NCBI GenBank assembly: GCA_947382625.1
Contig: CANDAG010000014.1
Coordinates: forward strand, 1 to 64,000
From: an uncultured Lachnospiraceae bacterium
GTDB lineage: Bacteria > Bacillota > Clostridia > Lachnospirales > Lachnospiraceae
DNA length: 64,000 nt
Direction: 5' to 3'
In this document: piece after piece, positions 5,523 to 31,467 of the stretch
How the letters are laid out: each line of letters starts with the position of its first letter
How positions within the stretch are numbered: position 1 is the stretch's first letter
Notes under the pieces: generated by a model
The model's database searches: none
What the model saw: the letters and a program-made list of their open reading frames with translations, nothing else
What the model was told of the DNA's origin: nothing
Translations under genes and position numbers: made by a program

Positions 5523-5531
5523 GGTTTCCAT

Positions 5532-7281: not shown

Positions 7282-7310
7282 TTGACATTTCCTTAGTATA
7301 TGTGTACAAT
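7282..7310 (+). promoter_or_regulatory. Promoter of the first LacI-type regulator
   Basis: TTGACA (7282-7287) and TACAAT (7305-7310) are 17 bases apart, which is near consensus for the vegetative sigma factor. A LacI-type dyad lies 8 bases downstream of the -10 box, covering the likely start of transcription, so the gene is probably autoregulated. Confidence 0.85.
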
Positions 7311-7318
7311 CTAAACAA

Positions 7319-7334
7319 GCTAAAACGAAATAGC
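7319..7334. promoter_or_regulatory. LacI-type operator O1
   Basis: GCTAAAACGAAATAGC is an imperfect 16-bp dyad with GCTA/TAGC arms and a central CG, as common for LacI/GalR operators. The first 12 bases recur exactly at 8481-8492, before the next gene of the same operon. The most likely binder is the LacI protein encoded at 7352. Confidence 0.65.
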
Positions 7335-7351
7335 AAATCAGGGGGAGTATA

Positions 7352-8398
7352 TTGGCAGGCAAAGGGAACATTCAAATTAAAGAGATTGCAGAAAAGCTGG
7401 GACTTTCTGCGGGCACGGTTTCCATCGTTTTGAACGGACGCGGTGATAAGATGCGTATCTCAAAGGAAACCCAGAAGAAGATCAAGGATATTGCCAGAGA
7501 AATGGGTTATCAGCCAAATATATATGCACGCAGATTGAGAAATGCGGGCGTAGAAGGTACTGGAAGAGTGATTGCCGTCTTTTGGAATTCCGGTTATGCC
7601 GATGAAATTATGGGCAGCTTTTTCCGCGGATTGCAACGGACTGTAGAAGAAACGGAGGAGCATGTAGAGTTTTATATCCATATGTTCGCCTATGGACAAC
7701 TGGTTGATTGTGAACAGATGATGACTCCCTCCAGATACAGCGGTATTATCGTCTGTGGAATATCAGATGCCGATGCCGAATTTTTAAATACCCATACATT
7801 TGAAATACCTATTGTGTGTGTTTTTCGAAATGAAAAAAATTATCCCTGTGTTTATGTGGATGATTATGCGGTTGGTTCTGATTGTGCCGCATTGTTTGCA
7901 AAAAGAGGCCATAAGAGGGCAGGATTTATCGGAAGCAGCCAGAACGGACCGAACTCTATACTGCGTCAGATGGGCTTTATCAATAAATGCAGGGAACTGG
8001 GGATTGAGGTTAAAAGAGACTGGATCAGGGAGGAAGATGAGAGAGATTTTCATTCCGGTCACAGAGCAATGGACAGCATTCTTAAGTGTGAAGAAAATCC
8101 TACGGCAGTTCTGGTCAATGTGCCGGATCAGGCAATCGGTGCGGTAGTGGCCTGCCGGAACAATGGTATGCAGTTTCAAAAGGATATAGAGGTTCTTGCC
8201 GCCGGAAGCAGCAAGGTTTTTGAATATTTTTCTCCTTCTATCAGTACCGTTTGCACGCCGGTGGAGCTGGTGGCTGAAAATACATTGAATCTTCTGCTTC
8301 TGATCATAGAAAAGGATATCAGGATGCCTATGAGCCGGGTGCTGGATGCTGAATATGTCTTTGGCGATACCTGTCAGAGTCCGGAGGAAACAAGATGA
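7352..8398 (+). CDS. LacI/GalR-family transcriptional regulator (system 2)
   Basis: Repressor of 348 aa. The N-terminal helix-turn-helix reads IKEIAEKLGLSAGTVSIVLN (about residues 6-25), followed by hinge sequence and a periplasmic-binding-like effector domain. The start is a TTG at 7352, 5 bases after AGGGGGAG; no ATG gives an intact DNA-binding domain. It heads a cluster with an MFS transporter, binding protein, two permeases and two serine hydrolases, and its own promoter carries a matching dyad. The second LacI protein in this window (26020) has a very similar recognition helix (STVSIVLNG), and the operators of both systems look related. Confidence 0.92.
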   Translation: MAGKGNIQIKEIAEKLGLSAGTVSIVLNGRGDKMRISKETQKKIKDIAREMGYQPNIYARRLRNAGVEGTGRVIAVFWNSGYADEIMGSFFRGLQRTVEETEEHVEFYIHMFAYGQLVDCEQMMTPSRYSGIIVCGISDADAEFLNTHTFEIPIVCVFRNEKNYPCVYVDDYAVGSDCAALFAKRGHKRAGFIGSSQNGPNSILRQMGFINKCRELGIEVKRDWIREEDERDFHSGHRAMDSILKCEENPTAVLVNVPDQAIGAVVACRNNGMQFQKDIEVLAAGSSKVFEYFSPSISTVCTPVELVAENTLNLLLLIIEKDIRMPMSRVLDAEYVFGDTCQSPEETR

Positions 8399-8424
8399 TA
8401 AAGTTATATGGCCGGTCCTGATGC

Positions 8425-8470
8425 TATAATATATTTTAAATTCTCTTTGTAATCAGGGAGAATTTAAAAT
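8425..8470 (+). promoter_or_regulatory. Internal promoter and leader stem-loop before the MFS gene
   Basis: A TATAAT lies at 8425-8430 without a clear -35. Directly after it is a perfect 13-bp inverted repeat, ATTTTAAATTCTC (8433-8445) and GAGAATTTAAAAT (8458-8470). No T-run follows. It sits 11 bases before operator O2, so the 113-base gap looks like a regulated leader rather than a plain operon joint. Confidence 0.45.
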
Positions 8471-8480
8471 TTACCAAGTT

Positions 8481-8496
8481 GCTAAAACGAAAATGC
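8481..8496. promoter_or_regulatory. LacI-type operator O2
   Basis: GCTAAAACGAAAATGC matches O1 (7319) at 13 of 16 positions, the first 12 being identical. It lies between the LacI gene and the MFS start at 8512, downstream of the TATAAT at 8425, where a bound repressor could block elongation. Confidence 0.6.
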
Positions 8497-8511
8497 AGAA
8501 AGGCAGGGAAG

Positions 8512-9684
8512 ATGAAAAAGGAAAAGCTGTTTAACCATAATTATATTTTTTTGACACTTGCAGGCCTGATCATTTCCTTTGGTTACAGCATGATAGCGGC
8601 CTTGATCAGTCCCTACGGCGTTACCCTGGGTGCGAAGCTGACAGTGGCCGGTTCTCTGGCCGGGATTTATTCTATTGCAGCTCTGATGATACGGCCTTTT
8701 GGGGGATTTATAACAGACAGCTTTAATAAACGGAGTATCTGTATTTTATCGACTATGTTGATCTGTATTGCAATTTTGGGCTATTCCTTTGCTCCGGGTA
8801 TCAAGACAATGTTTATTGTCCGGATCCTGCATGGGTTAGCATTTGGTATTAACGGAACAGCCAATATAGCGATCCTGTATGATTATATACCGAAAGAGAG
8901 GCTTGCAGAGGGGATTGGCTTTTATAGCTTAGGACAGGTGGTATCGCAGGTTTGCGGTCCCGGTCTTGGTATAGAGATCAAAGACAGGTTTGGCTATCGG
9001 TTTTTGTTTCTTCTGATAGCGGTTCTTACGGTTCTGGCAGTTGTATTTCTTTTTTTGACAGACAGAAAAGAAGCAGCTGAAGGTTCAGAGAAGAAAAAAA
9101 TTCGTTTTACCTTTGACAGGCTGATCTGTACTCCATGCATAGTATATGCACTGGTGGGCGGACTGTTTTCTCTTCAAAATGGGATCATTAATTCCTTTTT
9201 GCTGCTTTTGTCCGAGGAGAGAAGTATTGCCGGGATATCCCTGTTTTTTTCTGTAAACGCCGCCATATTATTTTTTATACGAATGTTTGTTGGAAAAATT
9301 GTAGACAGGCATAATATTACTGTGATAGTAAATGTTTCTTTGATCACCAGTATAGTGGCTATGGCAGCTGTGGGCGGTGGAAAATATTTGTGGGTATTTC
9401 TTGCCGCAGCTGTTCTGAAGGCAGTAGGGCAGGGAAGCGGGCAGATTTCTCTGCAGACAGCCTGTATGAAAAAGGTAGATGCTGCAAGTGTAGGGATAGC
9501 TACCAGTACATTTTATATAGGAGCAGATTTAGGGCAGGGACTTGGTCCGATCATTTGCGGAAGGATTTCCGATCAATTTGGCTATGAGGTTATGTTCTAT
9601 TGGGTGGCTGTTTTGATTTTTCTTTCTATGATCGGGTTCAATCTATATCAAAGAAGAAAGGAGACCATAAGCGAAAAAAAATAA
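8512..9684 (+). CDS. Major facilitator superfamily transporter
   Basis: Membrane transporter of 390 aa with about 12 membrane helices in two halves, joined by a basic cytoplasmic loop (around residue 190, SEKKKIRF). The loop RPFGGFITDSFNKR between helices 2 and 3 is the MFS signature region. It resembles the drug- or metabolite-efflux branch more than sugar/H+ symporters, but that is a judgement from overall look. The start at 8512 is preceded by AGGCAGGGAAG; a TTG at 8479 would overlap the operator. Since an ABC importer for the same locus follows, this protein may export a product of the imported compound. Confidence 0.85.
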   Translation: MKKEKLFNHNYIFLTLAGLIISFGYSMIAALISPYGVTLGAKLTVAGSLAGIYSIAALMIRPFGGFITDSFNKRSICILSTMLICIAILGYSFAPGIKTMFIVRILHGLAFGINGTANIAILYDYIPKERLAEGIGFYSLGQVVSQVCGPGLGIEIKDRFGYRFLFLLIAVLTVLAVVFLFLTDRKEAAEGSEKKKIRFTFDRLICTPCIVYALVGGLFSLQNGIINSFLLLLSEERSIAGISLFFSVNAAILFFIRMFVGKIVDRHNITVIVNVSLITSIVAMAAVGGGKYLWVFLAAAVLKAVGQGSGQISLQTACMKKVDAASVGIATSTFYIGADLGQGLGPIICGRISDQFGYEVMFYWVAVLIFLSMIGFNLYQRRKETISEKK

Positions 9685-9711
9685 AAAGTTACTTTGGAGG
9701 AAGGAAGTTTC

Positions 9712-9746
9712 AGATTCAAAAAGCTGGATCGCGAAGCGTGACAGTA
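9712..9746 (+). repeat. Dispersed palindromic element, copy C
   Basis: On the minus strand this reads GTCACGCTTCGCG followed, without gaps, by a GCTTTTTGAAT block. It aligns with two 38-bp elements at 44907-44944 and 54440-54477; the 13-bp core is identical to copy A. It lies just downstream of the MFS gene, in the same orientation relative to the upstream gene as the other copies. It is the most diverged of the three and its outer stem is broken. Confidence 0.5.
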
Positions 9747-9769
9747 CATGATTTTGTCAGGAGGTATGT

Positions 9770-11353
9770 ATGAAAACTATATTAAAAAAATTAACCGGTA
9801 TTCTTTTGGCGGCGTCTTTGGTTTTTTCAGTAACTGCATGCGGCAGTGAAGCGCCGGAAAACACAGAGGATAATGAAAATGCCAATACGGCAGTCAGTGA
9901 GCAGGACGGAGAAGCTGCAGAAGAGGCGCAAAACGAACAGACTTCTCAGGAGACGAAAGGAGAGTCAGAAAAGATCGTGGTTCCCTATATGCTGACTATG
10001 AATGCAGCAGAGGAAAGGGAAATGGTTCAGGATGCGATCAATGAGCTTACCATCCCGGATATCGGAGTGGAGGTAGAGCTTTTATGCATTGACTTTGCAA
10101 GCTGGTCCGATCAGCTCAATCTTCTTTTGACAGATGGGGGAGTAGATCTGTTTAATTGCTGCTTTATGTCTCCGGTATCTACCTATGTGGACAGCGGCGC
10201 GATAACAGAGCTGGATGATCTTCTGGAGGAATATGGCGCAGGGATCAGGGATTGTCTTGGTAAATATATCGAAAGCGGAAGATTTGACGGCAGTATTTAC
10301 GGCGTACCTAAGGTTGACGCCTACAGTAATCGCCCCTGTGTGGTAATGGATGCGGAAATCTGCGATGAGTTAGGGATATCGCCGGATGATATCCACAATT
10401 TTGAAGATCTGACGCAGGTTGCTCTTAAGGTAAAGGAAGCCCATCCTGATCTGGCGATTTTCCCTACCGGGACAAATGGAGATTTTATGGGACCTATCGG
10501 GTTCGATCCCTTAGGAACCACCGGAAATAATGTCTTCGGCGGACTGGTTCTTGCGGACAACAATCTGGAGGTAGTGAATATTTTTGAAACGGAAGCATTT
10601 GAGACAATGATCGGTTATACGAATCAGTGGATGGAAAAGGGGCTCTTTGTCAATGATCCCATGAACTCCCAGGACGGCGCTGTTTCTTATCTTTCCAACC
10701 GACAGGCTTTCTGTTATATGGGAGGCGGATTTGACCCTGCAGTAACGGCTGAGGTACAGCAGAACAATTGCGGTATGAGGCTTTATGGTGCGGAGCTTGC
10801 CGATACAAATTATGCCACCACGGACTCTGTGTCAGGCATGATGTGGTGTATTCCTGCTCTGAGCGAGCATAAGGAAGCTGCTATGAAATTTTTGAATGCA
10901 TTGTATACAGACAGCGAACTGGCGAATCTTGTCTGCAGCGGGATCGAGGATGTCCATTATGTAAAGCAGGAGGATGGAACCATTGATTTCGCGGAAGGTC
11001 TGGATGCTTTTACAACAGGATGGCCCTCCGGTATGGGAACATTCTGGCCGAATATAACTATCACGGATCCATGGAAGCCTAACAGTCCCGATTACTATCA
11101 GACCTGGATCGATTCCAACGATCATGCGGTATTGTCTCCGGCAATGGGATTTACTTTTAACCCGGCAAATGTAACGGATGAGATTGCCGCATGCACAAAC
11201 GTAGTTTCCCAGTACTATAATGCCATTGTATTGGGACTGGATGATACAGAAAGCCTGCTTGAAACATTCCGTTCAGAGCTAAAGGATGCCGGCATAGACC
11301 GGATCATTGAAGAAAAACAGGCGCAGCTGGATGCATGGGCTGCTGAAAAATAA
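9770..11353 (+). CDS. Extracellular solute-binding lipoprotein (importer 2)
   Basis: Lipid-anchored receptor of 527 aa for importer 2. The signal peptide ends in VTAC with Cys24; an acidic, Glu/Gln-rich linker runs to about residue 65 and the family-1 binding fold follows. The ribosome site is TCAGGAGGT. It precedes two permease genes, the reverse order of importer 1. A strong stem-loop lies just after the stop codon, as often seen where binding protein must outnumber permease. The ligand is not evident; the regulator and hydrolases around it suggest an esterified or amide-containing substrate. Confidence 0.92.
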   Translation: MKTILKKLTGILLAASLVFSVTACGSEAPENTEDNENANTAVSEQDGEAAEEAQNEQTSQETKGESEKIVVPYMLTMNAAEEREMVQDAINELTIPDIGVEVELLCIDFASWSDQLNLLLTDGGVDLFNCCFMSPVSTYVDSGAITELDDLLEEYGAGIRDCLGKYIESGRFDGSIYGVPKVDAYSNRPCVVMDAEICDELGISPDDIHNFEDLTQVALKVKEAHPDLAIFPTGTNGDFMGPIGFDPLGTTGNNVFGGLVLADNNLEVVNIFETEAFETMIGYTNQWMEKGLFVNDPMNSQDGAVSYLSNRQAFCYMGGGFDPAVTAEVQQNNCGMRLYGAELADTNYATTDSVSGMMWCIPALSEHKEAAMKFLNALYTDSELANLVCSGIEDVHYVKQEDGTIDFAEGLDAFTTGWPSGMGTFWPNITITDPWKPNSPDYYQTWIDSNDHAVLSPAMGFTFNPANVTDEIAACTNVVSQYYNAIVLGLDDTESLLETFRSELKDAGIDRIIEEKQAQLDAWAAEK

Positions 11354-11375
11354 AAGCAGGATTCTATGAAGCAGG

Positions 11376-11428
11376 GCCCCGCCGTAACCGGCGGGGCATA
11401 TAAAAATAGATACGCCGCTTTTGGCGGC
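11376..11428 (+). other. Twin stem-loops between binding-protein and permease genes
   Basis: A strong GC-rich hairpin, GCCCCGCCG (11376-11384) with CGGCGGGGC (11389-11397) and a TAAC loop, is followed by a smaller one (GCCGC 11414-11418 with GCGGC 11424-11428). Neither is followed by a T-run, so full termination is unlikely. Such elements commonly protect the 3' end of binding-protein mRNA and lower permease expression. Confidence 0.65.
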
Positions 11429-11444
11429 AGAAATAAGAGGAATC

Positions 11445-12356
11445 ATGAATACAAGGAAACTGAAAAGAGCTCTCCCCCTTTACCTGATGATGCTTCCGGG
11501 GCTGGTGTATCTGGTGATCAACAACTATATTCCCCTTGCAGGCCTTCAGCTGGCGTTTAAAAAGTTTAAGTATGTGGAAGGAATCTGGGGAAGTCCCTGG
11601 GTAGGGCTGAAAAATTTTGCTTTTTTGTTTAAAACCAGAGACGCCTTTAATCTGTTTCGGAACACAGTAGGATATAATCTGGTATTTCTGATCATCAATA
11701 CTATTTTGGCTATTGTGGTAGCCATAATGCTCAATGAAGTCCGCTCCGGAATGGTCCGTAAGGTATCTCAGACCCTGATATTGATCCCCTATCTCCTGTC
11801 CTATGTGGTCATCAGCTATATTGTCTATGCGCTTTTGGGCCAGTCCAGCGGAATGATCAATAACAGTATTTTAGTCCCTTTGGGGATTGAAAAAATTTCA
11901 TGGTACACCAGGCCTGAGTACTGGCCTTTTATCCTGACGTTCGTTCAGGCATGGAAGAGCTTTGGATATCATTCTATTATTTACTATGCTACCATTATAG
12001 GATTTGATAAATCTCTATATGAGGCAGCGGCTGTGGACGGTGCGGGAACATGGAAATGTATCAGAAGTATTACACTTCCTTTGCTGAAGCCCACGATCAT
12101 AACCCTTACCCTGATGAGCATAGGAAGAATGTTTTACTCAGATTTCGGTCTGTTCTTCCAGGTGCCTATGAATTCGGGAATGCTGCAAAAGGCAACTACC
12201 ACCATCGATACCTACGTTTACCGGGGACTGATGGAAAGCAGCGATATCGGCAGAGCGGCGGCAGCAGGATTTTTGCAGTCAATTTTGGGATTTGTGACGG
12301 TACTTGCTGCAAATATGATCGTGAGACGTGTAGAATCCGAAAACGCTTTATTCTAA
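11445..12356 (+). CDS. ABC importer permease, LplB-like (importer 2)
   Basis: Membrane subunit of 303 aa with six predicted helices. The N-terminal segment LPLYLMMLPGLVYLVINNYI and the EAA loop LYEAAAVDGAGTWKCIRSIT identify the CUT1 LplB/YtcP branch. The ATG at 11445 follows AAGAGG; an in-frame TTG at 11421 lies in the upstream hairpin. It is 24 bases from the next permease and would pair with it. Confidence 0.92.
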   Translation: MNTRKLKRALPLYLMMLPGLVYLVINNYIPLAGLQLAFKKFKYVEGIWGSPWVGLKNFAFLFKTRDAFNLFRNTVGYNLVFLIINTILAIVVAIMLNEVRSGMVRKVSQTLILIPYLLSYVVISYIVYALLGQSSGMINNSILVPLGIEKISWYTRPEYWPFILTFVQAWKSFGYHSIIYYATIIGFDKSLYEAAAVDGAGTWKCIRSITLPLLKPTIITLTLMSIGRMFYSDFGLFFQVPMNSGMLQKATTTIDTYVYRGLMESSDIGRAAAAGFLQSILGFVTVLAANMIVRRVESENALF

Positions 12357-12380
12357 GGAAAATCAAGAAAGCGAGGAATT

Positions 12381-13271
12381 ATGAATTCAAGATCCGACAA
12401 AATATTCAGCAGGGTTTCCACAGCCCTTATGATCCTTCTGGCTCTGATATGTGTTTTTCCTATCGTGCTACTATTTATGTCATCTATTACCTCAGAAGGT
12501 GCACTTCTGAAAAACGGATATTCGATCTTTCCTGAGGAATTTGGATTCGACGCCTATCAGTATCTGTGGTTCAGCAGGGAAAAGATCCTTCGTTCCTATG
12601 TAATGACTATAGCTTCTACTACGGTTGGAACCAGCTTAAGCGTGATCATAACCACACTTTTTGCATATCCGCTTTCCAGGAAAAACCTGCCCGGAAGGAA
12701 TTTTTTTGCCTTTTTTGTATTTTTTACCATGCTTTTCAATGGAGGTATGATCCCTTCCTATATGATGTGGGTGCAGACCTTTCATATTAAAGATACATTT
12801 TGGGCGCTTATCTTTCCCTCTCTGCTTCTCAGTGGTTTTGCCGTTATCATGATGCGGACCTATTTCAGCACAAATATACCGGATAATATCCTGGAGGCGG
12901 CTATGATCGACGGCGCTTCGGAATTCCGTATCCTCATTTCTGTTGTAGTGCCAATGTCCAAACCGATCCTTTCAACGGTAGGTCTGATGACGGCGTTAGC
13001 TTACTGGAATGACTGGATGAACGGACTCTACTACCTGACGAAGAGGACAGATCTTTATACGATCCAGAATCTGCTGAACAGGCTGATCACCAGCGCGGAC
13101 TTTTTGAGCAATAATCAGGCAAACAGTATGATCGCCGCAAATATACAGGTGCCCAGTGTAGGCGTGAGAATGGCTATCGCAGTGATAGCGATCATACCTA
13201 TTTTAGTCATTTATCCTTTTTTTCAAAAAGGATTTATTAAGGGTATTGTTATTGGAGGAGTTAAGGGGTAA
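12381..13271 (+). CDS. ABC importer permease, LplC-like (importer 2)
   Basis: Second membrane subunit of importer 2, 296 aa, six helices, with the EAA loop LEAAMIDGASEFRILISVVV and the C-terminus FFQKGFIKGIVIGGVKG typical of the family. The ribosome site GCGAGGAA is well spaced. The next gene starts 17 bases on, placing a serine hydrolase in the same transcript. Confidence 0.92.
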   Translation: MNSRSDKIFSRVSTALMILLALICVFPIVLLFMSSITSEGALLKNGYSIFPEEFGFDAYQYLWFSREKILRSYVMTIASTTVGTSLSVIITTLFAYPLSRKNLPGRNFFAFFVFFTMLFNGGMIPSYMMWVQTFHIKDTFWALIFPSLLLSGFAVIMMRTYFSTNIPDNILEAAMIDGASEFRILISVVVPMSKPILSTVGLMTALAYWNDWMNGLYYLTKRTDLYTIQNLLNRLITSADFLSNNQANSMIAANIQVPSVGVRMAIAVIAIIPILVIYPFFQKGFIKGIVIGGVKG

Positions 13272-13288: not shown

Positions 13289-14779
13289 ATGGAAAAATCT
13301 GCTTTAATGGATGGGATCATTACAGAAGCTATGCCGGAAGCTGTGGGGATTGCTTCGGAGCATATTGCAAATTATCTGAATTGTTTAAGAGAAATGGATT
13401 ATGATATTCACAGCTTTCAGATCGTAAGAAATGACAGGCTTGTTTTTTCTGCGGCGGCAGAGCCTTATACGTTACAAAGCCCTCATCGCCTTCTTTCTGC
13501 GGCAAAGGCGATCATTGGGGCAGCAGTGCTTTTTGCCATTGATGAGGGAAAGCTTTGCTTTGAGGACAGGATCACGGATTATTTTGAGGATAAGCTTCCT
13601 CCTGATCTTGACGAACGTTTCAGACGGATCACAGTTTACGATCTTCTGACAATGCAGACAGGGCAGGAAACAGATGAAGCGTTCCTGCACTTTCTGGAAA
13701 ATCCCGATGAGGATTTATGCGAAAGCTTTTTCCGCACGCCAATGACATGCGAACCGGGCACTCATTTTTTTTATAATAATTCGGTTCCTCATCTGTTGTT
13801 TTTCCTTGCTGAAAGAGCGGTAGGCAGGGATATTGCATCCTGGCTTAAGGAGAAGCTCTGTAAGCCTTTAGGGATAGATATCATTGCCCAATATAATGAC
13901 GATCATATTTATGACCCGGTTACAACTGTCGTTACGGCAGACGGCTTTTTGAAGCTTGCATTGTGGTTTCTGAAAGAGGGTGAATGGAAAGGAAGGCAGC
14001 TGATCGATTCGGCGCTGATCCGGCAGGCCTGTACCCGGCAGGTATGGACAAACAATGAGGAGCCGGGCTATCACAATGGAAAAGGGTACTGTATGCAGCT
14101 TTGGAAAAATGCATTTGGAGGATGCCGCATGGACGGAGGCGGCGGACAGATAGCGCTTATCCTTCCGGAAGAGAATATGGCAGTTACGATCATGGGAAAT
14201 GAATCCAGAGGCGATCAGGCTGTCAGATTATTTTATGAGGAAATTTATTCTAAAATGTGTGGCAGGCCTCTTCCGGAAAACACGGAAGGAAAACAAATTT
14301 TAGAGCGGGCAGCCCAAAGGATGAGCAGAGCGCCCAAACATGTAAAGCCGCACAGTCCGGCAGAAACGCTTCTAAAAAACAGGATTTGGAGATTTGATCC
14401 CAATGAGTGGGGAATAGAGGAGATTGCCTTTGATTTTGAAGAAAAAGAAGGAAAGCTTCATGTAAAGCAAAAAAACGAAACCTGCATCTACCATGTTGGC
14501 CTTAAGGCCGAGTGGGGCAGTAATCTGTCTCCATTTTTATTGGAGCCTGATTTAAGTATCCAAAACCGTATTTATGGTCCGGATCCGGAGCATTGCTTTT
14601 TGTCCGGTGGCTGGCAGGATGATGAGACCTTTGTTATCCTGTGCAAAAGTCTGGCAGCAATGGGAGAGTATCCGTTTTGCTGTACTTTTAAAGACAATAA
14701 ATTGACTTTACAGATTCCAAAGGGGATCAGTGCGGGGATGAAACCGGAAGCCGGATGGTCCTGTCTGAAATCCATATAG
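13289..14779 (+). CDS. Beta-lactamase-fold serine hydrolase (cytoplasmic)
   Basis: Class C beta-lactamase/esterase-like protein of 496 aa. The catalytic tetrad S70-A-A-K73 and the second motif Y162-N-N164 are intact, and a DGGGGQ stretch stands in for the KTG motif. The core covers about residues 30-330; the last 150 residues form a separate beta-rich tail (DUF3471-like in position; not identified). No signal peptide or membrane segment is present, so it acts in the cytoplasm, unlike true beta-lactamases. Lying in an importer operon and followed by a second such gene, it more likely cleaves an ester or peptide bond in the imported compound than an antibiotic. Confidence 0.85.
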   Translation: MEKSALMDGIITEAMPEAVGIASEHIANYLNCLREMDYDIHSFQIVRNDRLVFSAAAEPYTLQSPHRLLSAAKAIIGAAVLFAIDEGKLCFEDRITDYFEDKLPPDLDERFRRITVYDLLTMQTGQETDEAFLHFLENPDEDLCESFFRTPMTCEPGTHFFYNNSVPHLLFFLAERAVGRDIASWLKEKLCKPLGIDIIAQYNDDHIYDPVTTVVTADGFLKLALWFLKEGEWKGRQLIDSALIRQACTRQVWTNNEEPGYHNGKGYCMQLWKNAFGGCRMDGGGGQIALILPEENMAVTIMGNESRGDQAVRLFYEEIYSKMCGRPLPENTEGKQILERAAQRMSRAPKHVKPHSPAETLLKNRIWRFDPNEWGIEEIAFDFEEKEGKLHVKQKNETCIYHVGLKAEWGSNLSPFLLEPDLSIQNRIYGPDPEHCFLSGGWQDDETFVILCKSLAAMGEYPFCCTFKDNKLTLQIPKGISAGMKPEAGWSCLKSI

Positions 14780-14835: not shown

Positions 14836-16383
14836 ATGTACAAAAAAGAACTGAAAAGGGTAAGGCCGGAGGAAGTGGGATTATCCAGCAGAAATCTGCT
14901 TGCTATGCTCAGGGAGCTTGAGGCCTGTGGCACGGAAATGCACGGACTTATGGTGGTAAGGCATGGAAAGGTGGCTGTTGAGGGATGGTGGGAGCCTTAT
15001 ACCTCCTCTACGGCACATATCTGTCACTCTATGGGAAAGTCTTATGTGGCCACTGCAGTAGGACTGGCATGTACACAGGGACTTCTAAATGTAGAGGATA
15101 AGATCGTGGATCTGCTTGCGGAGGAGATCAGGCAGTATCATGTTAATGTCAATGAAAATCTGGAACAGCTTACAGTGGAGCATGTACTGATGATGGCAAA
15201 CGGAATGTCCATTCATCCGGCTTCCGGAGAGTATCTCCTTAAAAATTATCTGACCAGTATCTTTGATCATGCGCCCGGGACAAGGTTTTTTTATAATACT
15301 ACCGGATCCTGTCTGCTGGGCGCCATTGTAATGAAGATGACTGAAAAAACAGTACGTGAATATTTAACAGAAGAAATATTTGATAAGATCGGATTGGAAT
15401 CCGACCAGCTGGAGTGGCTGACTTTTCGCGGAAATCATGTCCATGCGGCACCCGGCGTGGCTTCAAGCACAGAAAACAATCTGCGTCTGGGTATGCTGTA
15501 TCTGCAGAACGGCTCCTGGGAGGGAGAACAGCTTATTTCGGAGGAATGGATCAGAAAGGCCACTACCCGCCGCATCAGGACCGATGTTATCAATAAGGAA
15601 TCCCATTTAGATGACGGTGCAGGATATGGATATCAGTTGTGGATATGTCCGGAGGAGGAAACCTTTAAATTTGCAGGCGGACATGGGCAGGATGTTGTAA
15701 TGAGCCGAAAAAATGATCTTGTGATATCCCTTAACCAGGCTGCAAACGATGGGGCCTCCCGTGCAGAAAATGAGATTATAAGCCGTTATCTGTTGGCACC
15801 GGAGCTTCCGGATTCTCCGCTTCCTTCTGATGAGGAAGGCTTCAGGGAGCTTGATGAGTATATTCATTCCCTGAAGATCAAGGACAGAAGGAAGGAATCT
15901 GTACCAGACAACATAGACCTGTGGAATGGTATCTACCGTGTGGCAGAAGGAAGCTTTCATATTAACACGGAGCTCCGTCCCATGGATGACAGCAATGTAT
16001 ATACAGATTTTTATGATCATGAGGATGTGGATGTAAAAGAGATTTCCATTTACCATAAGGGAGAATTTTTGGAGCTTGTTTTTGATGACGGTACTTACAG
16101 AGCACGGATAGAGGCTTATTTAGATGGCAGTCTGCGTCCGGTTTATACAAAAGGGGCTATTCCAATCTATACACAAACTGTGTCTGCTGCATGGGCTGAA
16201 GAAAATGTGCTGACGGTGGAAACCAAATTTCTGCAGACCTGCTTCTGGACCAGACTGACATTTCACAGGGAAAAAGACAGTGTAGCGGTTCAGATTCAAA
16301 AGGAGCGGCTTCATGAGGATGATCCGTGGATTTCCGGTCAAGTCCGTCTGAAAAAACTATTGCCTGAAAGCGTTGAATATTAA
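14836..16383 (+). CDS. Beta-lactamase-fold serine hydrolase (cytoplasmic), second copy
   Basis: Class C-like hydrolase of 515 aa with S65-M-G-K68, Y153-N-T155 and a late FAGGHGQ motif. Only the general fold is shared with the preceding gene, so this is not a recent duplication. There is no signal peptide. A beta-rich C-terminal part (about 330-515) follows the catalytic core. It is 56 bases downstream of the first hydrolase, last in the operon, and ends before a terminator at 16431. Together the two suggest stepwise removal of two acyl or aminoacyl groups; substrate unknown. Confidence 0.85.
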   Translation: MYKKELKRVRPEEVGLSSRNLLAMLRELEACGTEMHGLMVVRHGKVAVEGWWEPYTSSTAHICHSMGKSYVATAVGLACTQGLLNVEDKIVDLLAEEIRQYHVNVNENLEQLTVEHVLMMANGMSIHPASGEYLLKNYLTSIFDHAPGTRFFYNTTGSCLLGAIVMKMTEKTVREYLTEEIFDKIGLESDQLEWLTFRGNHVHAAPGVASSTENNLRLGMLYLQNGSWEGEQLISEEWIRKATTRRIRTDVINKESHLDDGAGYGYQLWICPEEETFKFAGGHGQDVVMSRKNDLVISLNQAANDGASRAENEIISRYLLAPELPDSPLPSDEEGFRELDEYIHSLKIKDRRKESVPDNIDLWNGIYRVAEGSFHINTELRPMDDSNVYTDFYDHEDVDVKEISIYHKGEFLELVFDDGTYRARIEAYLDGSLRPVYTKGAIPIYTQTVSAAWAEENVLTVETKFLQTCFWTRLTFHREKDSVAVQIQKERLHEDDPWISGQVRLKKLLPESVEY

Positions 16384-17875: not shown

Positions 17876-17889
17876 AGTATAGCTCCTTT

Positions 17890-20155: not shown

Positions 20156-20179
20156 TAAATTAAATTAGGAGGAATGCTT

Positions 20180-21558: not shown

Positions 21559-21587
21559 TATGACAAGATAACAGAGAGGTATAAATT

Positions 21588-23365: not shown

Positions 23366-24547
23366 ATGAAAAATACACAGAAAAATAATAAAAATCAGGC
23401 CTATGCTTCACATATGCTCTATTTTGATCCGTTTTACTGGAAAAAAACAGAAAAAGGGCTGTCGGGAGAGCTGAGAAATTATCCGGGTATCATGGTGAAG
23501 GAGGATGGCTCTGTACATGTAATGTTTTATGCACCGAATGCAGAGAAGGTTGAGATCACGGGGATCGGCGGACATATGCAGGGAAAGCTGAAAGGAACGT
23601 TTCCTTTGGTCAGATGTGTTGAAAAAGAAAAGGAAGGATATTGGGAAACGATACTATCGGGAATAAAACCTGGATTCCATTATCACAGATATCTGGTAGA
23701 TGGGCAGGAAATGTTGAATACTATCGCCCCTGTTGGATTTGGCTGTGGCGAGGCTATTAATTTTTTTGAAGTTCCTGATCCGGATTTTGACGACTATCTT
23801 CTGACGGATGTCCCCCATGGAACTGTGCGCATGGAATTGTTTTCGTCATCTGTTACGGGAAAGGTTCGTTGCTGCTGGGTATATACACCTCCGGGTTATG
23901 ATGAGGAAAAGAAGGAATATCCGCTATTGTTTCTGCAGCATGGAGGAGGAGAAAATGAATGTGGATGGATCTGGCAGGGCAAGATAAACTATATTATGGA
24001 TAATCTGTTGGCAGCTGGGGCGTGCCGGAAAATGATCGTGGTAATGAATTGCGGAGATTATTTTACGGAGCAGGAGGATGGGACTTATACAGCTGTTGAT
24101 ATGGATGAAATTGTGATTCGGGATTGCCTGCCATTTATTGAAAGGCGATACAGAACACTAAAATGCCGGTTGGCAAGAGCCTGTGCAGGGCTTTCTCTGG
24201 GAGGGACTTATGCCCGCCGGGTGGTGTTCCGTCATCCGGAAACATTCTGCTCGTTAGGGATGTTCAGTTCAGGGGCAGGATTTCAGGTAAAGGGAACCGA
24301 GCTTGATATGCCTTATGATTATACAAGCTTATTTGAGGATCTTGAAAAATATAATCAGGATATGAAGCTTACCTTTATAAGCTGCGGGGAACAGGATTTC
24401 AGGATAGAATATACGGGTCCTCAGGTAAAAGAGCTTACAGATAAGGGATTTCGCATAGAGCTTCATACGTATCCCGGTTATCATGAATGGGATGTTTGGA
24501 GAAAATCGGCAGCGGATATGATCCGCAGGCTGTTCACCTGGTTATAA
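23366..24547 (+). CDS. CBM48/CE1-like esterase, single unit
   Basis: Alpha/beta-hydrolase of 393 aa. An E-set/CBM48-like domain (about 35-140) precedes a CE1-type catalytic domain with oxyanion segment QHGGGENECGWIWQGK, nucleophile Ser277 in GLSLGG, and His373 in GYHEWDVWR. Known relatives remove feruloyl or acetyl groups from plant oligosaccharides. It lacks a signal peptide, so it should act on imported, small substrates. It is the functional counterpart of each half of the 672-aa protein at 17890. Position between permeases and a second binding protein ties it to importer 3. Confidence 0.88.
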   Translation: MKNTQKNNKNQAYASHMLYFDPFYWKKTEKGLSGELRNYPGIMVKEDGSVHVMFYAPNAEKVEITGIGGHMQGKLKGTFPLVRCVEKEKEGYWETILSGIKPGFHYHRYLVDGQEMLNTIAPVGFGCGEAINFFEVPDPDFDDYLLTDVPHGTVRMELFSSSVTGKVRCCWVYTPPGYDEEKKEYPLLFLQHGGGENECGWIWQGKINYIMDNLLAAGACRKMIVVMNCGDYFTEQEDGTYTAVDMDEIVIRDCLPFIERRYRTLKCRLARACAGLSLGGTYARRVVFRHPETFCSLGMFSSGAGFQVKGTELDMPYDYTSLFEDLEKYNQDMKLTFISCGEQDFRIEYTGPQVKELTDKGFRIELHTYPGYHEWDVWRKSAADMIRRLFTWL

Positions 24548-24596: not shown

Positions 24597-25919
24597 ATGA
24601 AAAAGGGATGGATTTTATTTCTGATCATAATGATTCTGGTTGGGACAGCTGCGTGCGGGGAACAGAAAGAAAAAAATGATGAAGCTCTTGGAAAGAGTAA
24701 CATGGATGTAGCAAAGGAACCAGTTACAATTCGTTTCTGGAATGGGTGGACAGGAAAAGATGGAGAGCTTCTGAAAGAGATGGTAGCTCTCTATAACGAA
24801 AAAAATGAAGATAATGTGACTGTTGAAATGGATATCATGGAATTTTCGATATTGGAGGAAAAAATGAACATGGCAATAGCCAGTAGTACAAATCCTGAAA
24901 TGCATATTGGGTCTGCTGTTGGTGATTATGCAAAAGACGGGGTCTATATCCCCATAGATAGCATATGGGATGCAACTGATCTGGAAAAAGAGGATTTTGA
25001 TGAAGAAATCCTTAAAAACAATTACTATCAGGGAAAGCTTTATGGGATGCCGTTTCAAATTTCTCCTACTTATTTGTTCTGGAATAAGGATGTTTTCAGG
25101 AAGGCTGGACTTGACCCGGAAAAACCGCCTGAAACATGGGAGGAGCTGGTAGAGTTCTCTGATAAGATTGAAGATCCGGCTCAAAATATTGTAGGAGGAG
25201 GGTTTTATTACGGAAATCATAATACAATTGGAAGCATGATGGTCAGTATGGGAGGCGGTGTGATTTCTTCTGATAATAAAAATTTGTTGACGGATCCGGA
25301 ATGTATAGAAGGAAATTTAAAAGCGCTGGAATTGTATAAAAAGTATGTGGATGGTGGTGAAACAAGAAGGTATTCTGATGCGGATTATCAAAATATGTTT
25401 TTGGCAAATACCTGTGGGATGCTGACGTCAGGATCCTGGTTTGCGTCCAGCTGTGAGGAAAATGGAGTAGATTATGGGTTAAGCCTACTTCCGGCCGGAG
25501 ATAAGGGAATATCCATGTGCGGGTGGCCTCTTTCAATTTGTATCATGAAAAATACGGAAGGACGCAAATTGGAAGCCTGCTATTCCTTTCTTGAGTTTTG
25601 GAATGATAATTTGCATAATAAGATTATGGGTGACGGAATGTCTCCGGCTTATAAATGGACAGAGCTGGGGTATCAGCCATATCTGAAATCCGTAGCCAGA
25701 GATGAAAAATTAAATGAAAATCCAATGTTTTCGATTACCAGCAGTTATACAGAGTATTATGATCCCTATTATCCGGGAACATTTTTGGAATCTACTGCAC
25801 TATGCTATGATGCCCTTTTGCCAATGTTCGAGAATATCACTTTTGATGAGATGAGTGTAGAAGAAGCTTTAAGAGAATGCTCTGATCATATGGACAAGGT
25901 TTTGGAAAATATGAAATAA
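24597..25919 (+). CDS. Extracellular solute-binding lipoprotein (importer 3, intact paralogue)
   Basis: Binding protein of 440 aa with lipobox GTAAC (Cys20). The mature part starts with EPVTIRFWNGWTGKDGELLK, nearly the same as in the frameshifted gene at 20180, and the two stay closely similar throughout. Its short signal peptide and linker differ more than the binding domain. It can supply receptor function for the permeases at 21588-23353 if the first copy is inactive. The ribosome site is CGGAGGAAAG. Family: extracellular binding protein family 1, sugar type. Confidence 0.92.
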   Translation: MKKGWILFLIIMILVGTAACGEQKEKNDEALGKSNMDVAKEPVTIRFWNGWTGKDGELLKEMVALYNEKNEDNVTVEMDIMEFSILEEKMNMAIASSTNPEMHIGSAVGDYAKDGVYIPIDSIWDATDLEKEDFDEEILKNNYYQGKLYGMPFQISPTYLFWNKDVFRKAGLDPEKPPETWEELVEFSDKIEDPAQNIVGGGFYYGNHNTIGSMMVSMGGGVISSDNKNLLTDPECIEGNLKALELYKKYVDGGETRRYSDADYQNMFLANTCGMLTSGSWFASSCEENGVDYGLSLLPAGDKGISMCGWPLSICIMKNTEGRKLEACYSFLEFWNDNLHNKIMGDGMSPAYKWTELGYQPYLKSVARDEKLNENPMFSITSSYTEYYDPYYPGTFLESTALCYDALLPMFENITFDEMSVEEALRECSDHMDKVLENMK

Positions 25920-27105: not shown

Positions 27106-27136
27106 GCAGCAGGTAATTTTACCTGCTGCCTTTTTT
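27106..27136. terminator. Bidirectional terminator, overlaps the carboxylesterase stop codon
   Basis: GCAGCAGGTAA (27106-27116) pairs perfectly with TTACCTGCTGC (27119-27129). Six T follow on the plus strand and an A-run precedes it, giving a T-run on the minus strand. The last codons and the TAA of the minus-strand carboxylesterase form one arm. Confidence 0.9.
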
Positions 27137-28660
27137 AATGAGGGCGTTTTTGGCTTCTGCTACTTGCTGTCGGATCATAAATTTCATAAATGGGGATTGC
27201 CCTGTGTCCTCCATTTGCGGTACATCTCCGAAGTGCATACAATTTTCGGAATCTGCAGTATAAGGTTTCCACAGGGGAAGAGGATCTTTATTATTGTCCT
27301 CGCCGTTGGGATTTCCTGTCTTTGCAAAATTAGTCCAATAATTGCACATCTGTCGTGCCAGATCGTAATGTTTTCCCTGAAAAGGTCTCCAGCATTTAGC
27401 AAGTGTCTCGAAAATAAACCATAACTCTGATGAATGGAATGCTCCGGCGTTATCCCCGGGAAGATCGGCGTCAAAGCGATAAATGTAGAGAGGATGATTT
27501 TGCTCCGCTGCAAGTGTTGCCCAGGTCTTGGCACCAAGTTCGCTTAGATTGTAGGAGAAATGGAAGCCTTTTTCTCCTTGGCTCATCCTGGATTTCGCCA
27601 GGGAAAGGAAGGTATCGGCATTTTCTCCGAAGGATTCTTTTGCGTAAGCGTCAAGTTCGGTGCGGGAGTTGAAGTGGAGAAATCGGTTCATCTCTGCAGT
27701 AGTGCTTCCTGTCATGCACTGAAACGTGTTCAGACGGCCTGCGGCAATGGATAAAATGGGATCCTCCTTAAGATACCATCCGTCAATGACAGGACCCCAG
27801 CGGACATCGTGGAGAATAAATTCCATAGATTTATCCCGAAGGGTGCAGGCGTCAATCTGACGTGCCTGCGCTATACTGTCAACCTTAAGAAAAGAAAGAA
27901 AACGTTTCCCGGTCTCCTCGGCTTCTCTGAGAGAAGGATACAAGGGACGGCAGCACAGACCGGCACCTCCTGCGCTTTGTGATATCGCACGGACAAAGGT
28001 ATCCTTTGCAAGAGGAGAGGAGAGATGACACAAAACGCTGCGTCCTCCTGCGGATTGTCCGAAGACAGTCATATTTTTCGGGTCACCGCCAAATGCGGAG
28101 ATATTTTCTTTGACCCATTTGATTGCGGCAAGTTGATCGAGAAAGCCATAATTTCCACTGGAATGGAATTCACTCTCCTGTGTAAGCTCCGGATGGGCAA
28201 GGAAACCAAATCCATTGACTCTGTAATTGACACTTACAAGTATTACTCCTCTTCTTGCAATACGCTCTCCGTCGAATTCCATCTCGGAAGGATAACCGCA
28301 ACACATACCGCCTCCAAAGATCCAAATCATTACCGGAAGCTTTTCGGAAGTGTTCCTGGCCGGACTCCAGATGTTTAAATACAGGCAATCCTCGCTCATG
28401 GGAATATCGGGATCCACGTGCCATTCTTTCGTGTAAATATCATCCGGTGCATTTAGTCCGGGAATTTCCTGCATGGAAATGGGGGCAAACATCTCTGCTT
28501 CCAAAACACCTTTCCAGGGGGCGAGGGGCTGTGGGGCTCTCCAGCGGAGCGCGCCTACAGGCGGTGCAGCAAAGGGAATACCTTTAAAAGCAGTGATCCT
28601 GGGATCGGCGGCTGGAATTCCCCGGATGACTCCATAGTGTGTAGTGACCTGTCTTAGCAA
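27119..28660 (-). CDS. Type-B carboxylesterase (para-nitrobenzyl-esterase-like)
   Basis: Alpha/beta-hydrolase of 513 aa with normal family length. The oxyanion segment IWIFGGGMCCGYP (about 112-124), the EDCLYLNIWSP signature (90-100) and nucleophile Ser203 in FGQSAGG are all present, and FHSSELWFIF near residue 405 likely holds the catalytic His. These enzymes cleave many carboxylic esters. The start is TTG at 28660, nine bases after AAAGGAG. No signal peptide. The promoter on the minus strand (28742-28714) and a GCTAAAT sequence in the leader suggest joint control with the divergent esterase at 28856. Confidence 0.92.
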   Translation of the reverse strand: MLRQVTTHYGVIRGIPAADPRITAFKGIPFAAPPVGALRWRAPQPLAPWKGVLEAEMFAPISMQEIPGLNAPDDIYTKEWHVDPDIPMSEDCLYLNIWSPARNTSEKLPVMIWIFGGGMCCGYPSEMEFDGERIARRGVILVSVNYRVNGFGFLAHPELTQESEFHSSGNYGFLDQLAAIKWVKENISAFGGDPKNMTVFGQSAGGRSVLCHLSSPLAKDTFVRAISQSAGGAGLCCRPLYPSLREAEETGKRFLSFLKVDSIAQARQIDACTLRDKSMEFILHDVRWGPVIDGWYLKEDPILSIAAGRLNTFQCMTGSTTAEMNRFLHFNSRTELDAYAKESFGENADTFLSLAKSRMSQGEKGFHFSYNLSELGAKTWATLAAEQNHPLYIYRFDADLPGDNAGAFHSSELWFIFETLAKCWRPFQGKHYDLARQMCNYWTNFAKTGNPNGEDNNKDPLPLWKPYTADSENCMHFGDVPQMEDTGQSPFMKFMIRQQVAEAKNALIKKGSR

Positions 28661-28806: not shown

Positions 28807-28820
28807 GCTAAATAATTAGC
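28807..28820. promoter_or_regulatory. LacI-type operator O5
   Basis: GCTAAATAATTAGC is a 14-bp dyad with five-base arms (GCTAA/TTAGC), 17 bases downstream of the -10 box. It is the best match to O4 at 20142 and suggests one regulator controls both transcripts. Confidence 0.65.
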
Positions 28821-28855
28821 AAAAACATCAGGGGTATATAGAAAGGAGAAGGAAG

Positions 28856-30253
28856 ATGAATACGGAAAGTCAGTTTACAGAAGTGTATCCGATTATGTAT
28901 CGGGATTTTGAACAATTTAACAGACTGCCAAAATGTGGTTGTGTTAAGGAACAAAGGGAAGAAATTGTACAAGGTTATCAGAATATCTGGTATGAATATA
29001 TTCCCTCCAATTATTCAGAAGAAAAGAAATATCCATTGATCGTCCAGCTGCACGGGGGAGGTAATGATGGAAGGAGATGGGTGGATTTTACAATCTGGAA
29101 TCAGATTGCAGAAAAAAACGGATGTATTGTGATATATCCAAATTCAATCAGTTTTGAAAGATGGGGATGTACGGATGAGGAAATACAGTATCTGTATGAT
29201 CTGATTATGCTGATGCAGAAAAGATATGCGATTGACAGTACAAGGATTTATATGCAGGGAATGTCGAATGGTGAAGTGATGACTCTTGCGTTTACAATGA
29301 AACATTCCGATCTGCTGGCAGCGGCAGGTAATATTACAGGTCCTTCCCCGGCGGAGATGATAGAAGAGGACGATATTGCGCCGGCGCCATTACCGGTTTT
29401 ACAGATGCGGGGGGAGAAAGATGTATTTTACTGGCTTCCGGATCCTCTTCCAAAGGATATTTCTGATATACGCTATGCTATGAATGATATAAACCGTGAG
29501 ATTTGGGAGCGTGTGAACGGCAAGGATAATACGCCATGGCTCATGATACGGGGAAAAGATAATTTCATGCAGTTTAATGGTACCAATGCACCTATTATTC
29601 ATTGGGAGATTAAAGATATGGGACACAGGGAGCCTCCGGAAGGAGCCCAGGTGCTCTGGGACATGCTCTACTCCGGGTGCAGAAGAGTGGATGGAAAATC
29701 TCTCTGGGAAAACCCCATAACCGCGATTAAGCCGGATAAGGATTTGTTTGTAATGGCTCTTGGAAGTAATAAAGTATATGTTGGGGGAGAGATTAAAAAA
29801 ATAGGATCTTCGGATTCACATCAGGTCAGACTTATCCGTACCCTGGCACAGCTGGATTCTTTTCATTCCGTGCATATAGGAGAAATGTTTGATACGGATA
29901 GCCTTTATGCGCCCATTGAATTTCTTGAAAGTGTCATGGGGGCAAAAGTAGATTATATAAATCCGGGGGATGAAATTGACATTACTATGAAGGATGGGCA
30001 AAAAATTCATATGTGGGCATCTTCTCTTCTGGTGGAGACAGCCGGGCAATATAAGGGATTGAAAAAACCCTGTATTTTGATCTGTGGACAGTTTTTTGTC
30101 CCATTGGTGTCTTTCTGTGAAGATGTTCTGAATCTCCATGTTTCTGAAAATGCAAATGTGGTGGCTGTGGCAAGACATTCCATACAGTTGGGCGCTTATA
30201 CAGCCCGTATTATGAGGACATTGCTGGATGGATATAAATATGACGGAGATTAA
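28856..30253 (+). CDS. PHB-depolymerase/LpqC-like esterase with C-terminal CuAO-N-like domain
   Basis: Protein of 465 aa in two parts. The first (about 40-285) is an alpha/beta-hydrolase with oxyanion motif QLHGGGNDGRRW, nucleophile Ser137 in GMSNGE and His257 in DMGHREP, as in PHB-depolymerase- and feruloyl-esterase-like CE1 enzymes. The second (about 296-460) includes APIEFLESVMGAKVDYINPG and resembles the stalk domain found at the N-terminus of copper amine oxidases and in many Clostridial surface proteins, here in an enzyme without a signal peptide. The ribosome site AAAGGAGAAGGA is strong. A serine hydrolase follows after 38 bases. Confidence 0.8.
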   Translation: MNTESQFTEVYPIMYRDFEQFNRLPKCGCVKEQREEIVQGYQNIWYEYIPSNYSEEKKYPLIVQLHGGGNDGRRWVDFTIWNQIAEKNGCIVIYPNSISFERWGCTDEEIQYLYDLIMLMQKRYAIDSTRIYMQGMSNGEVMTLAFTMKHSDLLAAAGNITGPSPAEMIEEDDIAPAPLPVLQMRGEKDVFYWLPDPLPKDISDIRYAMNDINREIWERVNGKDNTPWLMIRGKDNFMQFNGTNAPIIHWEIKDMGHREPPEGAQVLWDMLYSGCRRVDGKSLWENPITAIKPDKDLFVMALGSNKVYVGGEIKKIGSSDSHQVRLIRTLAQLDSFHSVHIGEMFDTDSLYAPIEFLESVMGAKVDYINPGDEIDITMKDGQKIHMWASSLLVETAGQYKGLKKPCILICGQFFVPLVSFCEDVLNLHVSENANVVAVARHSIQLGAYTARIMRTLLDGYKYDGD

Positions 30254-30291
30254 TATCTGTAATTGTACAATAGAAAAAGGAGTGATATGGC

Positions 30292-31467
30292 ATGGAAGAT
30301 TTTACTAAACTGGACAGGCTTCTTGAAAGATTCGCACAAGAGACAGTTCCCTGCTGTGGTTGCGCAATTATGCGTGGAAATGAGATCCTTTATGAAGGGT
30401 ATAAGGGATATGCAAACTTAGAACAAAAAATACCATTAAATAAAAATCATATGTTTAGGCAGGCATCTACGACTAAGCTTTTTACCTATACAATTATGGG
30501 AATGCTGTTTGAAGAGGGAAAATTACTGTTTTCAGATCCTATCGGGGAATATCTTCCGGAATGGAAAAATACGATGAAATATGTACGCAAAGCAAATGGA
30601 GATTTTGAAGTTGTTCCTGCGAAGAATCCGATTACAATCAAAGATGCAGCTTCAATGTCCTGTGGTCTGCCTTACTGTATGTTTCCGGATGAGAACGCAA
30701 AAATTCCGACTTTGGCAGACATGAGCAGGAGAATCAAAAAGCTTTTAGAGGAAAAGGGAACCCCTGCGCTTCGCGATGAAGTGAGGGTGATGGCAGATGT
30801 GCCTGTTATGTTTGAGCCGGGTACACATTGGCTGTATGGTTTCGGAAGTGAGATAATCGGAGCGTTGGTAGAAGTGATTGAAGGTAAACCTCTGCGCAGG
30901 GTATTCGAGGATAGGTTGATAGTCCCATTGGGACTGAAAAATACGGCTACCTATTGTACAGATGAAAATCGGGACAGGGTTTTGGGAAATTACCAAAAGC
31001 TGCCAGATGGTACGTTGCGTCCTTTTCCGGCAGGGAATAACAGTGATGTGAATCCGGAGATCAGTCCGGAGGGGGCAAGACCCAATCTGTTGAGTTCTCC
31101 TGCGGACTTTGCCGTTTTTATGCAAATGTTGGCAAATGGCGGAACCTGGAAAGGAGAGAGATTTTTGGGGAAAGGGACAGTGGAGATGATGACAGCAAAC
31201 TGTCTGAATGTGGAACAACTCAGGGATTTTTCAGATACGTATTTAAATGGTTATGGCTATGGATTGGGTTTTCGTACATTGATCGATAAGGCAAAAGGCA
31301 GCCATAATGGAAATCTGGGAGCCTTTGGATGGACGGGAGGAGGAGGAACATGGGCTGAAGCCGATCCGATAAGAAAAGTTTCTCTTGTATATATGCATAA
31401 TATGTTTCCGAATGAAGAGCTTTATCATCACCATAGATTCAGGAATGTGGCATACGGATGCTTATAA
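30292..31467 (+). CDS. Beta-lactamase-fold serine hydrolase (EstB-like, cytoplasmic)
   Basis: Class C-like hydrolase of 391 aa, shorter than the two at 13289 and 14836 because it lacks their C-terminal extension. The catalytic motif is S59-T-T-K62; the second motif reads Y182-G-F, as in EstB-type esterases rather than true beta-lactamases; a GWTGGGGTW stretch supplies the third. No signal peptide. It shares a transcript with the esterase at 28856 and is the seventh ester- or amide-cleaving fold in 18 kb. Confidence 0.88.
   Translation: MEDFTKLDRLLERFAQETVPCCGCAIMRGNEILYEGYKGYANLEQKIPLNKNHMFRQASTTKLFTYTIMGMLFEEGKLLFSDPIGEYLPEWKNTMKYVRKANGDFEVVPAKNPITIKDAASMSCGLPYCMFPDENAKIPTLADMSRRIKKLLEEKGTPALRDEVRVMADVPVMFEPGTHWLYGFGSEIIGALVEVIEGKPLRRVFEDRLIVPLGLKNTATYCTDENRDRVLGNYQKLPDGTLRPFPAGNNSDVNPEISPEGARPNLLSSPADFAVFMQMLANGGTWKGERFLGKGTVEMMTANCLNVEQLRDFSDTYLNGYGYGLGFRTLIDKAKGSHNGNLGAFGWTGGGGTWAEADPIRKVSLVYMHNMFPNEELYHHHRFRNVAYGCL

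Follow-up and report, generated by a model that had tools for sequence, protein, structure and literature searches.

Why should a locus with two sugar importers carry seven hydrolases with ester- or amide-cleaving folds and no glycoside hydrolase (GH)? The question is raised by about 24 kb of DNA (positions 7352-31467) from an uncultured Lachnospiraceae bacterium, which lies in a window of 64,000 nucleotides, namely C14:1-64000, where C14 is contig CANDAG010000014.1 of assembly GCA_947382625.1. The contig has 86,232 bases, its end is the left edge of the window, and the assembly comprises 4.18 Mb in 113 contigs and is 88% complete. An earlier sequence-only reading had listed seven hydrolases, two importers, an MFS and a MATE exporter and two LacI regulators in this locus. 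We compared 32 open reading frames (ORFs) of the window with Pfam and/or NCBIfam profiles and judged the rest, mostly right of 43 kb, by eye, with gene starts taken from a simple ORF caller. The gene list proved correct and the observation was confirmed; a GH was found neither in the cluster nor among the 32 profiled ORFs. With slightly better than even confidence, we propose that the locus imports acylated arabinose-containing oligosaccharides and de-acylates them in the cytosol, that the GHs acting on the products are encoded elsewhere, and that the exporters possibly expel the acids.

According to this model, two CUT1-like, sugar-type ATP-binding cassette (ABC) importers would bring in the acylated oligosaccharides, from which cytosolic esterases of four families would take off ester groups (feruloyl, p-coumaroyl, acetyl). 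Hydroxycinnamoyl groups would be removed by the CE1 enzymes, other acyl groups by the PF00144, COesterase and polyhydroxybutyrate (PHB)-like enzymes. Next, arabinofuranosidases with genes elsewhere in the genome would cut the stripped oligosaccharide, arabinose would enter metabolism via AraB and other enzymes, and the MATE and MFS proteins may expel the freed acids.

The putative hydroxycinnamoyl esterases are the CE1 proteins encoded at 17890..19908 (minus strand) and 23366..24547 (plus strand). The latter is a CBM48-CE1 esterase, whereas 17890 is a tandem of 672 amino acids in the order CBM48, CE1 copy lacking the nucleophile, CBM48, CE1. PF00756 scored above its cut-off in 23366 and in the C-terminal copy of 17890, both of which keep the serine and histidine motifs (GLSLGG or GLSMGG, and PGYHEW). 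CBM48 reached 44.1 bits in 17890 (cut-off 22.4) and a borderline 21.5 bits, below the cut-off, in 23366. By sequence, the nearest solved structures of both proteins are CBM48-CE1 enzymes, several of them deposited as ferulic acid esterases. Their best family is NF041944 (xylanase/feruloyl esterase), yet the match covers the esterase half alone and its scores of 239.3 and 169 bits lie below the cut-off of 1200. In the N-terminal CE1 copy of 17890, the matched part (8-239) stops before the nucleophile serine. This serine is absent from four of 107 CE1 copies in 84 ORFs of the window and related genomes, the window's two ORFs included; three of the four lie at contig or ORF ends, which leaves the one in 17890 as the sole internal loss. 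The serine is kept in both copies of 21 other tandem CE1 proteins. Three weaker CE1-like ORFs stand outside this set, two with a GxSxG motif and one, a short split-ORF piece, with none. There is some precedent for a partner module of low activity, since the C-terminal CE1 domain of DmCE1B from Dysgonomonas is weakly active (PMC8040265). Adjacent CE1 genes, three at 236-3817 in L053 and four at 2500-7215 in L062 (L numbers denote loci or stretches of related genomes), suggest local duplication as one source of the fused tandems.

The other five hydrolases belong to three further families. A PF00144 match above the cut-off together with an SxxK motif, which we used to recognise family VIII esterases, was found in the serine hydrolases a (13289..14779; SAAK), b (14836..16383; SMGK) and c (30292..31467; STTK, PF00144 160.8 bits), all on the plus strand and with the motif read from the sequence. 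Family VIII is the name for PF00144-fold esterases such as 4ivi and 7pp3. The family VIII esterase-like protein 30292 has the esterase 7pp3 and the carboxylesterase 4ivi as its best PDB matches, nearly over its full length. A candidate function for 13289 and 14836, 3-succinylated cholic acid synthase (NF045925), was rejected at 139.6 and 142.7 bits against a curated cut-off of 800. The type-B carboxylesterase 27119..28660 (minus strand; PF00135, 337.8 bits) matches 8s6d best among PDB entries, followed by other carboxylic ester hydrolases. The last of the seven, 28856..30253 (plus strand), was characterised by profile search and PDB matches as a PHB/feruloyl-esterase-like hydrolase with a C-terminal Cu-amine-oxidase-N1-like domain. 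Its score with the Pfam model for PHB-depolymerase/feruloyl-esterase-like proteins, 22.5 bits, is just below the cut-off of 23, and the best PDB matches of its catalytic half are 3wyd (LC-Est1C) and the feruloyl esterase 9j07. Its C-terminal domain is common to two proteins of L142 and one of L146, whereas homologues in L063, L066, L053 and a second one in L146 have an N-terminal extension in its place.

Gene order ties these hydrolases to the importers. Importer b (9770-13271, plus strand) consists of a lipoprotein substrate-binding protein with SBP_bac_1 and DUF3502 matches (9770..11353, profile search) and two PF00528 permeases (11421..12356 and 12381..13271); it is followed after 17 bases by the PF00144 gene 13289 and, after a further gap of 56 bases, by 14836. 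Importer c (20174-23353, plus strand) has a binding-protein gene (20174..21558) and two PF00528 permeases (21588..22496 and 22493..23353), and ends 12 bases before the CE1 gene 23366, whose product has no obvious signal peptide. The binding-protein gene of importer c appears as two overlapping ORFs with the frame broken near 20850-20890, where it is frameshifted in a T run, by either real decay or an assembly error; its halves are 62% and 61% identical to a second, intact binding protein beside this importer (24597..25919, plus strand; PF13416/PF01547). An ATPase gene for the importers was not seen here, and presumably they use a shared one. The CE1 tandem 17890 stands head-to-tail with and close to the MATE gene (16529..17980, minus strand; PF01554, TIGR00797 at 202 bits with a cut-off of 147.4), for which the likely start is an internal ATG near 17875 and the start used to compute the spacing was 17878. 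The MFS exporter-like gene (8479..9684, plus strand, likely ATG at 8512; PF07690, 176.5 bits) lies directly upstream of importer b. Within its 24 kb, the locus holds three of the five PF00144 matches and two of the four PF00756 matches of the whole assembly, and this clustering of hydrolase genes exceeds chance.

By a hydropathy heuristic (not SignalP), a strongly hydrophobic N-terminus was found in none of the seven hydrolases, the peak mean hydropathy of their N-termini being 0.06-1.41 as compared with 1.80-3.45 for four binding-protein genes. This agrees with the sequence-only reading, which had seen no signal peptides and proposed that an esterified compound is imported, cleaved inside and one product expelled. 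That interpretation is partly supported: gene order, the lack of obvious signal peptides and the recurrence described below lend good support to import and internal ester cleavage, and the gene neighbourhood suggests that a product may be expelled. Downstream of the locus lies araB, encoding ribulokinase (33333..34991, plus strand; TIGR01234 at 628.9 bits with a cut-off of 583.25, NF003154 at 655.3 bits with a cut-off of 428), preceded by a homologue of AraM-like glycerol-1-phosphate dehydrogenases (31877..33349, plus strand; NF002022 at 200 bits, below the cut-off of 413).

Candidate arabinofuranosidases that could complete the pathway are available in the same organism, as seven GH51-type (PF06964) and 16 GH43 matches were found in its genome, all on other contigs. 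On the contig of the locus, beyond the window, there are a GH4 gene (C14:76451-77932) and, at the right end, a GH13 gene (C14:84001-86028). PF06964 matches are also present in all eight host genomes of relatives that were checked. Genes around homologues in these relatives were labelled by BLAST against the proteins of this analysis, plus Pfam for part of the ORFs, and the BLAST references for GHs came from GH51, GH43, GH10, GH2 and GH5 only, so that other GH families could escape. Xylan-like loci (such as L069, L070, L076, L079-L082 and L084-L089) were left out of the gene-by-gene annotation. We ranked distinct clusters by their esterase genes, counting S15 and CE4-like proteins as hydrolases, and GHs occur in four of the ten richest, each with at least four hydrolase genes: GH51 in L066, L074 and L062 (two genes in L062), and GH43 in L072. 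One GH51 protein from L062 matches the intracellular arabinofuranosidases 1pz3 and 5o7z. A GH was recognised in none of L063, L142, L071, L053, L067 and L073, a few ORFs of which fell outside the test. Full independence of the ten clusters cannot be assumed, because several loci share a genome and the layouts of L067 and L073 are identical. L063 and L160 are one locus, which enters the ten clusters once and the set of 84 CE1 ORFs twice.

Clusters of this kind thus come with and without GHs, the GH-less state being one variant, and the GHs found among the ten belong to arabinofuranosidase-bearing families. This qualifies the emphasis that the sequence-only reading had placed on the absence of GHs: homologous loci with GHs, which it had treated as a reason to abandon its interpretation, make up four of the ten clusters and many GHs lie elsewhere in the genome, but none was recognised in the other six, the richest included. 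The link to arabinose that it had suggested is strengthened, both by the GH51 and GH43 genes of similar clusters and by L186, where an importer, a GH51, a GH43 and a 30292 homologue follow each other. Other GHs near homologues are a dockerin-bearing GH10 in L061, a GH2 in each of L098 and L099, a GH5 adjoining the MFS gene in L140, a beta-xylosidase-type GH43 in L187, and GH43-like proteins in two (L149, L150) of three stretches seeded with 13289.

The gene set recurs in other Clostridia, as a search for it in other genomes, proposed with the sequence-only reading, revealed. Scanning contigs with the 17890 protein, which matched 16 of 194 related genomes at E <= 1e-30 (own genome included, here and below), yielded 47 loci in which CE1 is present by construction. 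When presence was defined as a BLAST score above 100 bits, at least one of 11 other key families of the window was found in 25 of the 47, at least two in 16 and at least three in seven. MFS homologues (39-51% identity) occur in eight of these loci, MATE homologues (43-56%) in seven, 30292-like proteins (>=40%) in nine and 27119-like proteins (48-56%) in six; loci sharing a genome are L051/L059/L091, L050/L062/L095, L057/L067, L055/L073 and L065/L077. The clearest relative, L063 (G194:C8, a contig of 124 kb), has 12 hydrolases in about 28.8 kb (five PF00144-like, four further PF00756-type, two CE1 and one PHB-like), together with two importers, an MFS (49%), a MATE (50%), a second, distant MATE (24%) and three LacI regulators. 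Its labels are based on BLAST, with Pfam as a second basis for the PHB-like protein and for three of the PF00756 type. The same mix of CE1, PF00144, COesterase, 28856-like, MFS, MATE, importer c and LacI genes is seen in several genomes in differing order.

A second route to relatives started from the MFS protein, which matched 18 of the 194 genomes at E <= 1e-40. Homologues of the seven hydrolases were found in five of 13 MFS-seeded stretches and in none of 20 controls (Mann-Whitney p = 0.0017, Fisher 0.005; when L115, likewise returned by the CE1 search, is set aside, the Mann-Whitney p is 0.0037). The stretches were mostly 20 kb and included L151-L154, while the MFS-bearing but CE1-fetched L113 and L116 were excluded; the controls were placed by hand in eight of the same genomes, none of them the genomes of L115 or L151-L154. 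The positive stretches hold one (L140), seven (L142), two (L146), one (L147) and three (L115) such homologues, the L147 match being weak (22% identity, 45 bits). L142 is very rich in esterases, with a COesterase carrying a GDSL domain, two PF00756 proteins, a CE4-like deacetylase, two PF00144-like and three 28856-like proteins. Homologues of 30292 at E <= 1e-60 occur in eight of 194 genomes, the closest in L098 (66%) and the second in L182 (59%). Among the stretches around them, a MATE (46%) lies with a PfkB kinase in L184, two 30292-like genes occur in L183 and three in L185, and in L188 nothing was recognised.

Parts of the proposed route are known from other bacteria, here compared on the basis of excerpts of the published reports. 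The Xua operon of Ruminiclostridium cellulolyticum encodes an ABC importer, a cytosolic feruloyl/p-coumaroyl esterase and an acetyl esterase; feruloyl and p-coumaroyl groups are removed in the cytosol from imported arabinoxylo-oligosaccharides, with GH51 and GH43 taking part, and cytosolic ferulate removal within such import was reported in 2024, for this one organism, as a first (PMC11127375). Similarly, importer c forms one unit with the predicted cytosolic CE1 esterase 23366. However, the excerpt describes four GHs (GH51, 43, 8 and 39) and two esterases, whereas the window locus has no GH and seven esterase-fold genes; the Xua operon is under a LytS/AraC-type two-component system, whereas our locus has LacI regulators and two exporters; and XuaH has 265 residues, whereas the window's CE1 proteins include CBM48 modules and, in one case, a tandem arrangement. 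Because GHs within the operon are a feature of Xua that the window locus lacks, we file it as a variant of the Xua kind and not as a member. The CBM48-CE1 feruloyl esterases DmCE1B of Dysgonomonas mossii (PMC8040265) and wtsFae1A/B (6rzo/6rzn) have the same modules as the window's CE1 proteins. A polysaccharide utilization locus is the source of the Dysgonomonas enzymes, and a figure legend in that report marks predicted signal peptides, of which none was seen on the window's proteins; the weak module is C-terminal in DmCE1B, whereas the module without the serine region is N-terminal in 17890 (PMC8040265). In Butyrivibrio proteoclasticus, proteomics placed the esterase Est1E and the two-domain Xyn10D in the cytosol, where assimilated xylo-oligosaccharides are de-esterified as we propose here; in the excerpt, they are reported as single cytosolic enzymes and not as a cluster like the window's (PMC5217386). 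Our literature searches for PF00144 sugar esterases with importers, or for GH-less esterase clusters, returned none.

A number of observations weigh against import and cytosolic de-acylation of arabinose-containing oligosaccharides. Besides the lack of a GH in the locus itself, a GH10 xylanase was not detected in this 88% complete genome, the richest homologous cluster, L063, is also without a recognised GH, and GH51 or GH43 accompany only two of seven stretches around 30292 homologues. PF00144 also includes amidases and peptidases, and 14836 has as its best, moderate matches Lsa45 and a class C beta-lactamase-related hydrolase, with weaker ones to 6-aminohexanoate-dimer hydrolase. Moreover, none of the other key families occurs in 22 of the 47 CE1-seeded loci (some are short contigs), eight of the 13 MFS-seeded stretches have no homologue of the seven hydrolases, and the genes around the 30292 homologue of L182 are unrelated, apart from one with weak similarity to 13289. 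A LacI operator shared by the units, which may be jointly regulated, was not found when 16 intergenic stretches were searched for central-CG palindromes.

Some of these points would fit a locus that handles acylated small plant molecules, such as acyl sugars, hydroxycinnamoyl glycosides or similar multi-ester compounds, instead of hemicellulose fragments, with several esterases of differing specificity stripping one scaffold and the exporters removing toxic aglycones or acids. We consider this a minority possibility that deserves to be taken seriously. It would account for the expansion of esterases without recognised GHs in L063 (12 hydrolases) and L142, for the two multidrug-type exporters and for the patchy distribution of 30292 and 17890 among the 194 genomes. 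By profile, however, the importers appear to be of the sugar type, the CE1 modules carry CBM48, the GHs of similar clusters are GH51 and GH43, and araB adjoins the locus.

It is less probable still, though worth weighing, that the locus is a mosaic of independent units for different substrates that are merely adjacent: importer b with two PF00144 genes, importer c with CE1, the CE1 tandem with MATE, the carboxylesterase, and the pair 28856-30292. The genes form five blocks of alternating strand, no common operator was found, the two LacI regulators (7352..8398, PF00356/PF13377; 26020..27075, from the profile search; both on the plus strand) are different, and nearly half of the CE1-seeded loci are devoid of the other families. 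A chance assembly of units would not be expected from the recurrence of the same mix in different order in several genomes, nor from the MFS-seeded test (5/13 versus 0/20). Detoxification of peptides, amides or drugs, with the PF00144 proteins as peptidases or beta-lactamases and MFS and MATE as drug pumps, is very improbable: PF00144 does include D-aminopeptidases, beta-lactamases and 6-aminohexanoate-dimer hydrolases, and the L071 cluster holds an S15-type (PF02129) protein, but the NCBIfam beta-lactamase and peptidase models stayed far below their curated cut-offs, which speaks against the hydrolases being peptidases, 30292 is nearest to esterases, CE1 and COesterase proteins are not peptidases, and obvious signal peptides are lacking.

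The general principle is already known, and the new part is the recurring esterase-only, exporter-paired form. One might speculate, with considerable reserve, that this form is a distinct locus type of several clostridial lineages, combining an importer, esterases of at least four families and two dedicated exporters with no GH, and devoted to multiply acylated compounds, for which the release and export of acids such as ferulate would be a main outcome and not a side reaction of polysaccharide breakdown. A recurring form of this esterase-only, exporter-paired kind would suggest that decorations may be removed by a module of its own; it would mark uncharacterised proteins of the PF00144 and PHB-like types as candidate sugar esterases and help to foresee in which Clostridia hydroxycinnamic acids are set free from fibre.

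Outside the locus, genes for a histidine kinase and an AraC-type response regulator (88-3461) are found at the contig end, divergent from a further sugar-type importer (3597-7222) just outside the locus; these two-component genes adjoin that importer, whereas the esterase units adjoin LacI genes. To the right, a lipoprotein with two DUF6070 stretches is encoded at 35617-37899. The stretch 38986-43091 encodes a protein of 1067 amino acids, the second half of which contains a UvrD helicase, and then one that matches HipA_C weakly. The first 470 amino acids of the UvrD-containing protein gave no Pfam match at 1e-4, and we take its first half to read like a PHP-type domain. Finally, a large (814 amino acids) binding-protein-like gene and two permease-like ORFs are located at 47826-52043.

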